Shown: in pieces, positions 3,711 through 20,664 of the stretch
Position numbering within the stretch: the stretch's first letter is position 1
How the letters are laid out: each line of letters begins with the position of its first letter
Source: a virus
IMG/VR virus record: IMGVR_UViG_3300032240_001074
Span: 1-26,367 of that record
DNA: 26,367 nucleotides
Direction: 5' to 3' (one strand)
Position numbers and translations under genes: made by a program
Notes under the pieces: generated by a model
Databases searched by the model: none
What the model saw: the letters and a program-made list of their open reading frames with translations, nothing else
What the model was told of the DNA's origin: nothing

Positions 3711-3717
3711 CTTCTTA

Positions 3718-3737
3718 TTCCTGAAAGGAAACATATG
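3718..3737 (+). promoter_or_regulatory. Ribosome-binding-site hairpin
   Basis: TTCCT GAA AGGAA (3718-3730), then ATG at 3735. Here the upstream gene stops eight bases before the stem. Confidence 0.6.
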
Positions 3738-4172
3738 AGATACATCGTACCCAAAGATGGTGGTTTCATACCCGCTGACTTCGGCATTGCCGAAAAGAAT
3801 GACTGCGCTGTGAGAGCAATTGCCAATGTAGGTGCTTACCCCTACCCTGTGGCACTGCGTCTCATGGCTCAAGAGGGTAGGCCACGGGGTAGAGGAACAC
3901 CTTGGGATGCACTGGACAAGGTGTATAAGATGGCTGGTGCTTTCGATGTCACCTACTACGGTGAGAGAATGCGGCGGCTGTCTCAGAAGCACAGCGTTCC
4001 TTTCCGTCCACAAGGCATGACACTGGAGACATTCCTTGATCGTCACCCCAAAGGGCGGTATGTTGTTGTGATAACAAAGCATGCCCTTGCTGTGGTGGAT
4101 GGGGCCATAGTGGACATGGGTAGGAACAGGGCAGGTAAACGTCTGATGGCCTCATACAAGTTTGAGGAGTAA
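3735..4172 (+). CDS. Possible papain-like cysteine hydrolase, phage-conserved (145 aa)
   Basis: ATG 3735 has the hairpin ribosome-binding site. The layout suggests a papain-like/C39-like fold: a Cys in a helix-start context NDCAVRAIAN (C24), and late in the chain RYVVVITKHALAVVDGAIVD with H116 before a strand and D122 or D127 as third residue. Cys-helix then His-strand-Asp order and length fit small cysteine peptidases or related acyl hydrolases. The family assignment is inference; substrate unknown. The last base of its TAA stop (4172) is the first base of an unused ATG, and the next gene starts 3 bases further on. Confidence 0.6.
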   Translation: MRYIVPKDGGFIPADFGIAEKNDCAVRAIANVGAYPYPVALRLMAQEGRPRGRGTPWDALDKVYKMAGAFDVTYYGERMRRLSQKHSVPFRPQGMTLETFLDRHPKGRYVVVITKHALAVVDGAIVDMGRNRAGKRLMASYKFEE

Positions 4173-4672: not shown

Positions 4673-5596
4673 ATGCAAAAGCATCTCATCTTCTCCCGCA
4701 ATGTCAACAACACCGCTCTGACCAATGAGCGTATCCAGCAGTTGGCTCCCGCTGTATTCAGCAGCACCAAAGCAGACGGTTTGTCGGAGCGCTACGCTTC
4801 GCTGAACACTGCCCAATTGCTGCCTGTGTTGGCAGACTTCGGTTACTTCCCCATGCAAGCTGCTCAGAAGAAGAGCCGCAAGGGTGAGGCACAGCACTCC
4901 AGCCATATGCTGAGCTTCGCTAAAACCTACCACACTCAGGACATCATTGGTGATGTTCGCCCTGAGATTATTCTGTACAACAGCCATGATGGATCCAGCA
5001 GTGTGCGTTTGTTCGCTGGCTGCTTCCGCTTCATCTGCTCCAATGGCATCGTTGCTGGTGACGGGTTCCAATCCCGTATGTACCACAATGCTAAGGCCAT
5101 CAACGGCTTTGAAGATATGCTGGCTAGCACCGTTGACTCGCTGCCTCTGCTGATGGAGCGTATCGAAAAGCTGCGTTGCACCAAGCTGATGTACGGTGAT
5201 GCTGTGGAGATGGCCCGTAAGGGTGTTCAGACTCGCTGGAAGATGTTCGATGAAACTATTGAAGATATTCCCTTTGGCTCCTATGCCACAGAGAAGACGG
5301 TGCGAGATGCATTGGTGGTGCAGCGTAACGAAGACGATTACATGGACGCATTCACTGTGTTCAATCGTATTCAGGAAGCGGTGGTCAGGGGCAATGCGTT
5401 TGTTCGTAGCCTTAGCAAGGCCAACACAAAGCATGGCGACACTGGGGTGATGCGTAAAGCCCGTCCCATCAGCAGTGTGTCTGAGGGAATCCGTGTTAAC
5501 AACGAACTGTGGGCCATTGCAGATGCTTACAGTGGCACAGCCGTAGAGGAAGTGGTTCCTCATGGATGGGCTGTTGCCGAGACAGCAGTTGCTTAA
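4673..5596 (+). CDS. DUF932 (phage/plasmid-like) protein (307 aa)
   Basis: ATG 4673 lies 7 bases after AAGGAA, itself in a small TCC/GGA inverted repeat. The protein matches the DUF932 pattern as I know it: DFGYFPMQAAQ near residue 55, the SFAKTY/RPEIILYNSHDGSSS region, then LFAGCFRFICSNGIVAGD in the middle, and a helical C-terminal half with NRIQEAVVRG. DUF932 proteins occur on phages, plasmids and integrative elements. They have no firmly established activity, though anti-defence roles have been suggested. Stronger CGT/CGC codon use than the exonuclease gene suggests good expression. An antisense open frame of 301 codons is a shadow. Confidence 0.85.
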   Translation: MQKHLIFSRNVNNTALTNERIQQLAPAVFSSTKADGLSERYASLNTAQLLPVLADFGYFPMQAAQKKSRKGEAQHSSHMLSFAKTYHTQDIIGDVRPEIILYNSHDGSSSVRLFAGCFRFICSNGIVAGDGFQSRMYHNAKAINGFEDMLASTVDSLPLLMERIEKLRCTKLMYGDAVEMARKGVQTRWKMFDETIEDIPFGSYATEKTVRDALVVQRNEDDYMDAFTVFNRIQEAVVRGNAFVRSLSKANTKHGDTGVMRKARPISSVSEGIRVNNELWAIADAYSGTAVEEVVPHGWAVAETAVA

Positions 5597-5610: not shown

Positions 5611-5760
5611 TCGGGGGAAAGCTATGCTGGAGTGCGCCGTTACTAGCACAGATCAACCAGCGTAGTGAGTACCCCACCTTTTCGGAGGGAAGTTGCCGAT
5701 ACAGGGGACTGCGGAACGGCGGTCAGTTGGTAGCTTCCCTCCACCTTTTCAGGAGGCCGT
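5611..5760 (+). ncRNA. Structured RNA candidate between DUF932 and the next gene
   Basis: Nested inverted repeats support two domains. Domain 1: GGGG near 5613-5617 with CCCC 5672-5675, then CTATGCTGG (5622-5630) with CCAGCGTAG (5657-5665), then GTGC/GCAC (5632-5635/5646-5649). Domain 2: GGAGGGAAG (5684-5692) with CTTCCCTCC (5734-5742), a perfect 9 bp extendable to about 17 bp with G-U pairs, capped by GACTGC/GCGGTC (5707-5712/5719-5724). A third stem, CCTCC/GGAGG (5738-5742/5752-5756), would compete with domain 2. Near-identical loops CCACCTTTTC occur at 5674 and 5741. I do not recognise the class. It could be a regulatory leader, a free sRNA or recombinase arm sites. Confidence 0.55.
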
Positions 5761-5767
5761 GTCATCA

Positions 5768-5795
5768 AAGAGAATGGCGATAGCTATCGACTCTT
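5768..5795 (+). repeat. Palindrome nested in an inverted repeat
   Basis: CGATAGCTATCG (5778-5789) is a perfect 12-base palindrome flanked by AAGAG (5768-5772) and CTCTT (5791-5795). It lies between the structured RNA candidate and the ribosome-binding-site hairpin. An operator or an RNA stem are both possible. Confidence 0.45.
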
Positions 5796-5803
5796 ATGGC
5801 ATG

Positions 5804-5829
5804 GTTTCCTATCTTTTATTTTAGGAAAC
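5804..5829 (+). promoter_or_regulatory. Perfect hairpin sequestering the next ribosome-binding site
   Basis: GTTTCCTA (5804-5811) pairs perfectly with TAGGAAAC (5822-5829) around a 10-base T-rich loop. The 3' arm is the Shine-Dalgarno sequence for ATG 5835. Folding would block initiation, so this could be the output switch of the structured region upstream. Confidence 0.6.
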
Positions 5830-5834
5830 ACATC

Positions 5835-6035
5835 ATGCATCAATTCATTCGCAAAGTATTTAAACAAATTACCGTGTTAGAGGCAGTAAGTGCTGAGCTA
5901 GCAGAGGCTGAGCTTTCCCTGCTGGAAGCAGAGACAGCAGCGGAATACGCTGACTCCATCATTGCCTACCGCACAGCACAGATTGCCCGTCTTCGAGGCT
6001 ACCTAACTCACTTGAAAGTGAACACCAATGAATAG
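5835..6035 (+). CDS. Small coiled-coil protein (66 aa)
   Basis: The start is ATG 5835, 8 bases after AGGAA; the frame is open upstream to 5796 but without a better site. The protein is almost entirely helical and Ala/Glu/Leu-rich from residue 15 to 58 (VLEAVSAELAEAELSLLEAE), a probable coiled coil or helical hairpin with a basic C-terminal turn (IARLRGYLTHLK). Small phage proteins of this kind are common and unassigned. It overlaps the next gene by 8 bases. Confidence 0.7.
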   Translation: MHQFIRKVFKQITVLEAVSAELAEAELSLLEAETAAEYADSIIAYRTAQIARLRGYLTHLKVNTNE

Positions 6036-18015: not shown

Positions 18016-19929
18016 ATGAACGACATCCAAACCCCTTGGTCATCTGTTGGCTACCTCACATACAAGCGCACCTACTCACGCCGCCTTAACGAGACTGATA
18101 TCAATAGCCCAACAGAAGAATTCATCGACACCATTAAGCGTGTGGTGGATGCAACTAATGACCAACTAGGTTGTAACTTCACAGCAGAAGAGCAAGCACG
18201 GCTCACTAAACACTTCCTTGAACTCAAGGGCAGCGTTGCTGGTCGCTTCTTGTGGCAGCTAGGAACTAATACAGTGGATAAGCTTGGGCTTGCTAGCCTA
18301 CAGAATTGCGCTTTCACTGTGGTGGATAAGCCGGTTGAGCCTTTTACTTGGGCTATGGATTTGTTGATGCTTGGTAGTGGTGTTGGCTACAACATTCAGA
18401 AGAAGAATGTGGACAAGCTACCTGCTGTCAATGAAAACTTTAAAGCTCCCACCAGAGTGGACAGTTCTGGCGCTCAGTTCATTGTTCCTGATAGCCGTGA
18501 AGGATGGGTTGCTCTGCTTGGCAAGACACTGAAGGCAGCGTTCCTCGCCCACAGCAGCGGCAATCAGACATTCACCTACAGCACACAGCTTATCCGTAGC
18601 AAAGGCGCACCCATCAAGGGCTTTGGTGGCACTGCCAGCGGGCCTGAAGACTTGGTGTGGGGGATTGGTAAGATCAGCGAGATCTTGGCCCGCCGCGCTG
18701 GGCGTAAGCTGCGTCCTATCGACTGCTTGGACATTATGAATATCATCTGTGCTGTGGTGGTGGCAGGTAATGTACGCCGCTCTGCACAGATTGCTATTGG
18801 CGATCCTGACGATGTTGAATTCTTGCTGGCTAAGCGTTGGGACATGGGCAACATTCCCTCATGGAGAGCAATGTCAAACAACAGCGTTGTCTGTAACGAC
18901 ATTGAAGACCTGCATGAATTCTTCTGGGATGGCTATGAAGGTAAGGGAGAACCCTATGGCCTGATCAACTTGCGCCTGTCCCGTAAAGTGGGACGATTGG
19001 GTGAAACTCAATATCCAGATCCTGATGTGCAGGGATACAATCCATGTGCAGAGCAAAGCTTGGCTGATAAAGAAACTTGCTGCTTGGCAGAAATCTTCTT
19101 GCCCAACATCACTTCTAAAGAAGAGTTGCTGGATGTAGCAACATTGCTATATCGCATTAACAAGCATAGTTTGTCCCTGCCTTGCCATCTTGAGTCCACC
19201 CAAACCGTTGTCAACAAGAACATGCGTATGGGCATTGGCATCACAGGCATACTGGAAAGCAACAAGGAGCAGCTTAGCTGGCTCAAGGACACCTACACCT
19301 ACCTGCGTGACTACGATGAGCAGTACAGCGCTCAGCACGGTTTTAACAAGTCTATCAAGCTAACCACCATCAAGCCTAGCGGTACGTTGTCCCTGCTGCC
19401 GGGGGTTACACCGGGTTGCCACCCAGCATATGCGCGTCATATGCTGAGGCGTATCCGCATCAGTGCGAATCATTCGCTGGTGCAGGTCTGTCGTGACCAC
19501 GGATATCCAGTAGAGTACCAACAAAACTTTGATGGCTCTCTAGATCACAGCACTGTGGTGGTGTCGTTCCCGTTCCGTCATACGGAATTGGCTACGCTTG
19601 CTAGCGAAGTGGATGCACTGGATCAGCTTGATACTGTCCGTTGGTTGCAGGAAAATTGGAGTGACAACAGCGTTAGCTGCACTGTCTACTACAAGAAGGA
19701 AGAGCTACCTGAGATCAAGAAGTATCTGAAGAAGTACTACAAAAACTCACACAAGAGCCTGTCCTTTCTGCTGCACAGTGAGCATGGCTTTAAGCAAGCA
19801 CCGTTGGAAGAGATTACCGAAGAGCAATACAATGCTTTGGTTGCCTCTACTCGCCTCATCACACAGGTTGCTGAAGCCACCATTGGCCTTGATGACGAGT
19901 GTGCTACTGGCGCTTGCCCAATCAGATGA
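18016..19929 (+). CDS. nrdJ: Adenosylcobalamin-dependent ribonucleotide reductase, class II monomeric (637 aa)
   Basis: Reduces ribonucleoside triphosphates to deoxy forms using a B12-derived radical, so it needs host or environmental cobalamin but no oxygen or small subunit. Visible landmarks: LQNCAFTVV (first active-site Cys), LGSGVGYNIQ, the finger-loop NPCAEQSL with C344 and E346 followed by the second active-site cysteines in ETCCLAEIF, IKPSGTLSLLPGVTPGCHP, and the C-terminal redox pair C629/C634 in CATGACPIR. That ending is like the Lactobacillus leichmannii enzyme. Length is near that family's (about 740) and the chain looks intact. AGGAG lies 4-8 bases before ATG 18016. Ends ATGA with the next gene. 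Confidence 0.96.
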   Translation: MNDIQTPWSSVGYLTYKRTYSRRLNETDINSPTEEFIDTIKRVVDATNDQLGCNFTAEEQARLTKHFLELKGSVAGRFLWQLGTNTVDKLGLASLQNCAFTVVDKPVEPFTWAMDLLMLGSGVGYNIQKKNVDKLPAVNENFKAPTRVDSSGAQFIVPDSREGWVALLGKTLKAAFLAHSSGNQTFTYSTQLIRSKGAPIKGFGGTASGPEDLVWGIGKISEILARRAGRKLRPIDCLDIMNIICAVVVAGNVRRSAQIAIGDPDDVEFLLAKRWDMGNIPSWRAMSNNSVVCNDIEDLHEFFWDGYEGKGEPYGLINLRLSRKVGRLGETQYPDPDVQGYNPCAEQSLADKETCCLAEIFLPNITSKEELLDVATLLYRINKHSLSLPCHLESTQTVVNKNMRMGIGITGILESNKEQLSWLKDTYTYLRDYDEQYSAQHGFNKSIKLTTIKPSGTLSLLPGVTPGCHPAYARHMLRRIRISANHSLVQVCRDHGYPVEYQQNFDGSLDHSTVVVSFPFRHTELATLASEVDALDQLDTVRWLQENWSDNSVSCTVYYKKEELPEIKKYLKKYYKNSHKSLSFLLHSEHGFKQAPLEEITEEQYNALVASTRLITQVAEATIGLDDECATGACPIR

Positions 19930-20587: not shown

Positions 20588-20664
20588 TTGTCCTTAGCTC
20601 AGTTGGATAGAGCAACAGCCTTCTAAGCTGTAGGTCATTGGTTCAATTCCAATAGGGCAAACCA
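20588..20664 (+). tRNA. tRNA-Arg (anticodon UCU)
   Basis: Cloverleaf complete: acceptor TTGTCCT (20588-20594) with AGGGCAA (20654-20660; one U-G), D arm GCTC/GAGC, anticodon stem ACAGC/GCTGT with loop CTTCTAA (anticodon TCT), a 5-base variable region, T arm ATTGG-TTCAATT-CCAAT, discriminator A and encoded CCA (20662-20664). Reads AGA (and probably AGG). Likely processed from the nrdJ-operon transcript, since it sits 6 bases after a stop codon and 18 before the next start. Confidence 0.93.

Follow-up and report, generated by a model that had tools for sequence, protein, structure and literature searches.

Between the TAA of a DUF932-family gene and the open reading frame (ORF) at 5835, positions 5613-5810 of the window (the whole 26,367-nt stretch of viral DNA analysed here) hold three tandem hairpin elements. 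Comparison with relatives revealed an unrecognised family of structured RNA whose stems covary and which carries an exchangeable domain at a fixed place. At least 187 copies of its constant outer part (scaffold A) were found, with at least 160 distinct insert bodies, here termed cargos. Judging from sequence patterns, the element likely acts at the transcript level by processing or protecting the upstream mRNA, the foremost candidate enzyme being RNase P. Our preferred reading, which we put forward tentatively, is that of an intercistronic element that would undergo tRNA-like processing, set the 3' end of the upstream mRNA, and carry swappable RNA.

Both long stems that a sequence-only reading of this region had named, CTATGCTGG (5622-5630) with CCAGCGTAG (5657-5665) and GGAGGGAAG (5684-5692) with CTTCCCTCC (5734-5742), are exact in the sequence, and the 8-bp hairpin over the ribosome-binding site (RBS) of the ORF at 5835 is likewise present as claimed (Table 1). 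They do not belong to the single nested two-domain fold proposed there, the region being instead made up of the three tandem elements. A third stem, CCTCC (5738-5742) with GGAGG (5752-5756), does exist, but it is weak, with 5 bp, and competes with a much longer helix. Elements A and B are each followed by an ACC-TTTTC spacer, element C by ATC-TTTT, and 16 nt separate the upstream stop from element A. The cargos recur in other loci. In L082, where the upstream protein is unrelated, there is a near copy of the element A cargo, and L002 has a different cargo at its position. The cargo of element B equals the scaffold-A cargo of L006 and differs by one base from that of L007, and the core of the element C cargo is also present in L002 and L003. 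Positions 5597-5834 fold at -101.3 kcal/mol (z = -6.56), and none of 200 dinucleotide shuffles folded as well. We nevertheless rejected fold energy as proof, because scaffold-A flanks are not unusually stable: with 30 mononucleotide shuffles per sequence, the mean z over the 100 nt after the stop was -0.41 in 17 scaffold-A copies and -0.73 at 529 further gene ends. The family as such is not marked by low fold energy, and the case therefore rests on covariation.

Table 1. Features of the window (positions in nt).
Feature	Position	Strand	Details
Upstream gene, DUF932 family	4673..5596	+	Pfam PF06067, E=9.7e-22; TAA at 5594-5596
Element A	5613..5678	+	basal stem 5613-5616/5672-5675; inner stem 5621-5630/5657-5666
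Element A, bulged-G motif	5617-5619 / 5668-5671	+	GAA / AGUA; by sequence pattern
Element A, exchangeable cargo	5631..5656	+	
Element A, tail	5676-5678	+	ACC
Element B	5684..5745	+	stem 5684-5692/5734-5742; cargo GATACAGGGGACTGCGGAACGGCGGTCA; ACC 5743-5745
Element C	5751..5810	+	hairpin AGGAGG...GGTTTCCT, then ATC
8-bp hairpin over RBS	5804..5829	+	GTTTCCTA (5804-5811) / TAGGAAAC (5822-5829)
Downstream 66-aa ORF	5835..6035	+	no Pfam match
RBS leaders TTCCT(A/G)AAAGGAAACA..ATG	1066-1087, 1291-1312, 1764-1785, 2058-2081, 2300-2321, 3717-3738		
B12-dependent ribonucleotide reductase gene	18016-19929		PF21995, PF02867
tRNA-Arg(TCT) gene	20588-20664		CCA encoded

The family was first traced via seven viral contigs with a related upstream gene, which have similar outer sequence at the same spot and often a different interior (L005 ends inside the element). 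An exact 18-mer, GGGGGAAAGCGGATGCTG, and a 3' 16-mer, ACGCAGCGAGTACCCC, each occur in at least 120 viral stretches. The 18-mer also has 17 exact matches in genome contigs; only 3 of these, all in contigs of metagenome-assembled genomes (MAG), have the 3' half as well, and an ordinary chromosomal element was rejected on this ground. A fuzzy scan of the collected loci yielded 192 copies in 187 loci, and removal of a duplicate of the window locus (L008) and of inserts of 100 nt or more left 187 copies, 3 of them in MAG contigs. Because exact patterns were used to retrieve most loci, the conservation seen in the constant halves is biased in that set; two sets of junctions, A1 and A2, were fetched by upstream protein and not by element pattern. 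By blastn, two Manatee Spring phage genomes carry plausible variants, and phages phiJB and Matzah gave matches of 18-24 nt. The earlier statement that the RNA fits no known class held up in the window and in the relatives scanned. At the Rfam 15 gathering score the sole match in the window was the tRNA at 20588, and at E<=10 the region gave three implausible eukaryotic matches. No Rfam match was obtained in 20 related loci, and 13 other loci at E<=1 gave one implausible snoRNA. A known Rfam class was thus rejected for want of a credible match in the window and these 20 and 13 loci.

The outermost part of the RNA is a G-rich basal stem. Inside it, GAA faces AGUA, and this is followed by a GC/GC pair, usually by GGAUG across from ACGCA or UGCA, by a short stem P3, and finally by the cargo, which measures 9-89 nt among the 160 bodies. 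GAA opposite AGUA, which by its sequence pattern we take to be the signature of a bulged-G (loop E/sarcin-ricin) motif, lies between stems that covary in alignment and pair counts, as a structured RNA with a bulged G would have it. The compensatory changes that had been suggested as a check were found. Among 56 aligned elements, two-sided changes occurred in 6 of 10 pairs, giving 26 cells versus 5.1 ± 1.9 in 500 shuffles, and sliding the pair partners gave 0-5 such cells; in this alignment the UGCA-type rows are out of P3 register and the 3' side of L294 is incomplete, both of which lower the paired fraction. A weaker covariation measure, the number of further pair types, stood at 12 versus 9.9, a value reached by 30 of the 500 shuffles. 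P3 in register was counted apart over the 160 distinct inserts, and its middle pair was T-A in 138, C-G in 13, T-G in 8, and otherwise in 1. Cargo ends pair over a mean of 1.91 bp, compared to 0.77 ± 0.09 for swapped partners (highest of 300, 1.0). A basal stem of at least 3 bp, with a one-base offset allowed, was present in all 44 distinct junction-defined cores. These comprise 12 strings, some of which are length variants of GGGGG/CCCCC, and others true changes such as GAGGC/GCCTC, GAAGCC/GGCTTC, and GGGC/GCCC. In 6 of 7 cargo families tried, at least two pairs showed two-sided changes while unpaired loops were kept; the GAGUUACC family had no compensating changes. The cargo of a minimal form is reduced to just a GUAA or GCAA loop (GGGGAAAGCGUAAGUGAGUACCC).

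Scaffold A occupies a narrow position relative to the upstream gene. The distance from the end of the upstream stop to the GGGG of the pattern is 5-11 nt in 150 of 187 copies; 27 copies lie outside this range, and for 10 no upstream ORF was found. The 177 upstream proteins form 43 clusters and the 161 downstream proteins 65 clusters. At least 47 of the 177 upstream proteins fall in clusters that match single-stranded-DNA-binding (SSB) or annealing families, as assigned by cluster representatives: SSB phrog_18154 (20 members), DUF669/phrog_6015 (18), gp2.5-like phrog_112/PF10991 (7), SSB phrog_44 (1), and RecT phrog_148 (1). Within the 20-protein SSB cluster, L018 matches the PHROG, and L120, read with a long start, matches none. 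Acidic C-terminal tails were found in 56 of 157 upstream proteins, compared to 85 of 2148 other ORFs and 3 of 149 downstream proteins. Clusters without an SSB assignment include one of 33 members, a Cys-rich one of 13, two of 11, DUF932 (9), and a Pam3_Gp34-like one (6). Structure prediction gave no safe fold for the 33-member family (pLDDT 65.5; top Foldseek matches, a chain of a phiC31 complex with E 6.6e-4 and TM 0.24, and PrgE with E 0.17) or for DUF932 (pLDDT 53.2). It speaks against our preferred reading that the window has a 16-nt spacer and DUF932 upstream rather than an assigned SSB. The 13-member cluster directly upstream of the element (L019, L020, L037, L043, L054, L061, L073, L101, L104, L106, L128, L160, and L187) consists of small, Cys-rich, signal-peptide-like proteins; L019 and L104 had no PHROG match, and L019 no Pfam match.

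What else occupies this slot was read from the two protein-defined sets, the best 80 of at least 598 loci (A1) and the best 80 of at least 555 loci (A2), each retrieved with one upstream family. We analysed 77 and 79 of the 80 loci, respectively, leaving out those with partial matches, and after removal of repeated junctions and those with less than 100 nt after the stop, 69 distinct A1 and 68 distinct A2 junctions remained, which were classified by script and then corrected by eye. The slot may be empty, or it may hold either a plain hairpin or one of a variety of elaborate RNAs. A1 comprised the scaffold (22), bulged-G-like elements with other cargo (6), simple GC hairpins (18), a "D" RNA (11), an "E" RNA (2), other large RNAs closed by a G/C stem (5), and nothing (5). 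A2 comprised scaffold or minimal forms (25), bulged-G-like elements with other cargo (26), simple hairpins (8), an "F" RNA (4), and nothing (5). As simple hairpins and empty slots make up 18 and 5 of the A1 and 8 and 5 of the A2 junctions, the elaborate form is evidently not required. Several simple hairpins have UUCG, UACG, or GCAA loops. In ten phage records picked from tblastn matches, the junction held a simple hairpin 7 nt after the stop, followed by GCC, in Pseudomonas phage Rollin, a larger hairpin in phage CRP-235, a weak one in MW202701, and in Burkholderia phage Bm1 a tRNA-Met gene that begins 6 nt past the SSB gene; five of the ten had nothing in the slot. In Curvibacter phage P26059A (KY981271; L371 2113-2768), 656 nt without an annotated gene follow directly after a DUF932 homologue and open with a hairpin and then a T run.

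The D, E, and F RNAs look mutually unrelated. The D RNA (L224, L233, L243, L253, L255, L261, L269, L271, L274, L285, and L289) measures ∼100-130 nt and lies just after the upstream stop; it has a long outer stem with GCGGTCGCA-like..GCGT and often CCTCGTTAGA segments, and the five members scanned (L224, L233, L243, L253, and L261) had no Rfam match. The E RNA (L240, L241, and L265) starts with CCCAGC(C/G)GGAGGTGGCGC and in L240 and L265 ends in CCCCGCACC; the one member scanned had no Rfam match, and an E-like stretch also follows scaffold A in L009, L058, and L127. The F RNA (L332, L341, L346, and L350) is ∼150 nt long, with CATCTTGTATATGTG, GCCAACC-like, and GGTGACAG segments, and lies behind a small SSB gene.

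The basal stem is usually followed by a purine-C-C (RCC) tail. Directly 3' of the outermost pair, 178 of the 187 scaffold-A copies have RCC, as ACC (109), CACC with a fifth pair (59), or GCC (10). An intrinsic terminator, in which a GC hairpin is followed immediately by a U run, was rejected, as (C)ACC follows the stem in 168 of 187 copies. In A1, RCC follows 42 of 46 complex elements, among them E RNAs, 7 of 11 D RNAs, and tRNA-like ones, versus 1 of 18 simple hairpins (Fisher P=7e-11); in this count, checked for double counting, the stem edge was set by eye for 24 of the 46 complex elements (20 of the 24 with RCC) and for the 18 simple ones. A script that located stems automatically, and that often settled on inner stems or chance pairings, placed RCC after 20 of 46 complex A1, 17 of 55 complex A2, and 2 of 26 simple elements. 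With ACC in 7, ACU in 11, and other tails in 4 of the 22 A2 cores, the RCC rule weakens for minimal hairpins. Gene 32 of phage T4 encodes the SSB of that phage. RNase P acts on mRNAs as well as on phage RNAs, and the message of T4 gene 32 was the first mRNA for which this was reported (PMC11143913). The contact between RCC and the RNA of RNase P matters for the cleavage of model substrates and of tRNA precursors (PMC12710915). One cargo, that of L205, was identified by ARAGORN as a tRNA-Arg.

A plain stabiliser of the upstream mRNA in cis, in which a hairpin after the stop blocks 3'-to-5' exonucleases, letting the upstream gene outlive the remainder of the operon, and the loop tolerates extra RNA that has no function, is rather unlikely. 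It would agree with the simple hairpins that occupy the same place in relatives and in phage Rollin, and with the kind of upstream gene being steadier than that of the downstream gene. Within cargo families, however, compensatory changes and conserved loops would not persist if the cargo were neutral filler, and the RCC tail is concentrated in the complex elements.

The apical domain is exchanged as a unit between phages. Across flanks of 500 nt, L043 and L061 are 98.8% identical on one side and 99.2% on the other, and their scaffold halves are unchanged, but their cargos are unrelated; L104/L128 (95.5% and 97.8%) and L012/L125 (90.9% and 92.8%) are similar cases. Among pairs whose upstream proteins are at least 90% identical, 26 of 50 had a cargo family in common, and this fell to 14 of 110 at 75-90% identity, 8 of 333 at 60-75%, 2 of 329 at 40-60%, and 0 of 155 below 40%. 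Sharing also crosses gene families: 64 pairs share a cargo though BLAST does not relate their upstream proteins, some of these upstream reads being incomplete or doubtful ORFs, and a strict count, limited to pairs whose two proteins belong to separate clusters among the nine largest, gave 30 such pairs.

Such whole-domain swapping suggests that the cargo rather than the base meets something that differs between hosts. In our preferred reading, a modular RNA array in the gap behind an early phage gene would act on the sense-strand transcript. Host RNase P would read the stem and the RCC tail as a tRNA acceptor end and cut at the 5' edge of the G-rich stem. The predicted cut would set and protect the 3' end of the upstream mRNA and leave a short stable RNA carrying the cargo. 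In the least certain step, it would be the cargo, not the base, that meets a host-variable partner, e.g., a defence factor or a host RNA-binding protein. That the locus as a whole is a dedicated phage RNA-cassette site behind an early, often SSB, gene, with tRNA-type release and use against variable host factors, goes further, and we regard it as somewhat unlikely.

It is distinctly unlikely that a trans-acting cargo comes first, with the base as a stable handle and the cargo as a small RNA (decoy, sponge, or tRNA-like inhibitor) directed against host factors, expressed by riding the early mRNA and swapped in an arms race. Domain replacement between near-identical phages and the many cargo families with fixed loops and changing stems speak for it, as do T-arm-like hairpins in 3 of 160 cargos versus 0.015 in shuffles, but most cargos resemble nothing recognised.

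Improbable, too, is a selfish origin, in which mobile hairpins jump at the DNA level into one another's loops and use these as harmless landing sites. This could explain why one cargo is found both in element B of the window and in scaffold A of L006, which are different stems, and also behind unrelated genes, and why an extra hairpin in L003 resembles the cargo of L099. Against this, exchange is exact within the scaffold and leaves the flanks untouched, the bulged-G motif and UNCG loops point to RNA, and the 11-base core is mostly single: in 20 long records, possibly fragments, it was present once in 16, twice in 2, and absent in 2.

The ADP-ribosylglycohydrolase (PF03747) and integrase (PF00589) genes further downstream in the window are both there, and the sequence-only reading had proposed a metabolite-sensing or other cis-regulatory switch for them. 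We now consider a cis-regulatory switch for the downstream genes highly improbable. The 3' arm of element C is overlapped by the 5' arm of the RBS hairpin, so the two are mutually exclusive, as a switch would require. The sequestered Shine-Dalgarno (SD) site taken as a hallmark of switching can indeed be paired, but such pairing is ordinary in the window, because a leader, TTCCT..AAGGAAAC, able to pair with its own SD precedes six other ATGs (repeat families D1/D2). Downstream genes vary most, more than upstream ones, and the would-be sensing part, the apical domain, is replaced wholesale; across the family we found neither a conserved sensing domain nor a steady set of regulated genes, as expected of a riboswitch. 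A TTCC/GGAA pairing can be made out over the RBS in L001, L002, and L003 as well, all of which keep the downstream ORF of the window, and local control of that one ORF at 5835 by RBS pairing is therefore possible. Least credible is a recoding or reinitiation device at the stop codon (readthrough, frameshift, or bridging from the stop to the next start): the tight spacing after the stop and the location of some elements between an SD-like AAGGAG and the next ATG would suit it, but no frame is clearly preferred among those open through the element (same 72, -1 84, and +1 65 of 168), on which readthrough and frameshifting were rejected, stop codons are mixed (TAA 115, TGA 38, and TAG 10 of 163), and many A2 junctions have their own SD after the element.

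The elements resemble several known systems in part. Among these are non-tRNA substrates of RNase P, namely T4 gene 32 mRNA, the P1/P7 C4 antisense RNA, phage M3 RNA, and some polycistronic mRNAs, which are likewise phage or operon RNAs (PMC11143913). The feature that RNase P RNA contacts, a stem trailed by purine-C-C (PMC12710915), is usually present in our elements. Unlike the present family, none is described in the excerpt of PMC11143913 as a scaffold with exchangeable domains, and cleavage of our element is only predicted. Phage tRNA gene arrays share with it folded units, short T-rich spacers, and ACC after the stem, and the slot of phage Bm1 holds a real tRNA. They differ in that a tRNA was called by ARAGORN in only 1 of 343 element sequences, and full CCA is rare, ACC being completed by an A in 16 of 168 copies. 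The STAXI RNA motif (RF01728) is similarly often found near SSB genes, and its UUCG loops were taken as a sign of RNA (PMC2864571), but it consists of tandem pseudoknots and occurs in Enterobacteriales. Its Rfam model had no match in the loci searched (the window and the sets of 20 and 13).

Chromosomal REP/BIME elements are palindromic, multicopy, stop-proximal hairpins, accompanied in the genome by a RAYT transposase and thought to stabilise upstream mRNA; the present element, in contrast, belongs to phages, has about one core per record in what may be fragments of genomes, and contains a bulged-G motif and a variable domain. Integron gene cassettes exchange a variable unit between constant flanks, whereas the exchanged unit here is a 9-89-nt RNA domain within a hairpin, known without integrase or attC. 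Swapping of protein-coding modules between phages is well known; we are aware of no report of a locus in which folded RNA domains are swapped within a constant RNA scaffold, and in the PMC open subset we found no description of such an exchangeable RNA element. If the locus is a dedicated RNA-cassette site used against host factors, it would be an RNA counterpart of anti-defence gene hot spots. The natural cargos, at least 160 of them distinct, form a large library of small structured RNAs for tests of processing and of effects on host defence, and the family offers a new handle on how phages set unequal mRNA levels within an operon.

Besides the genes in Table 1, the window genome also has genes for a family A DNA polymerase and a primase-helicase.
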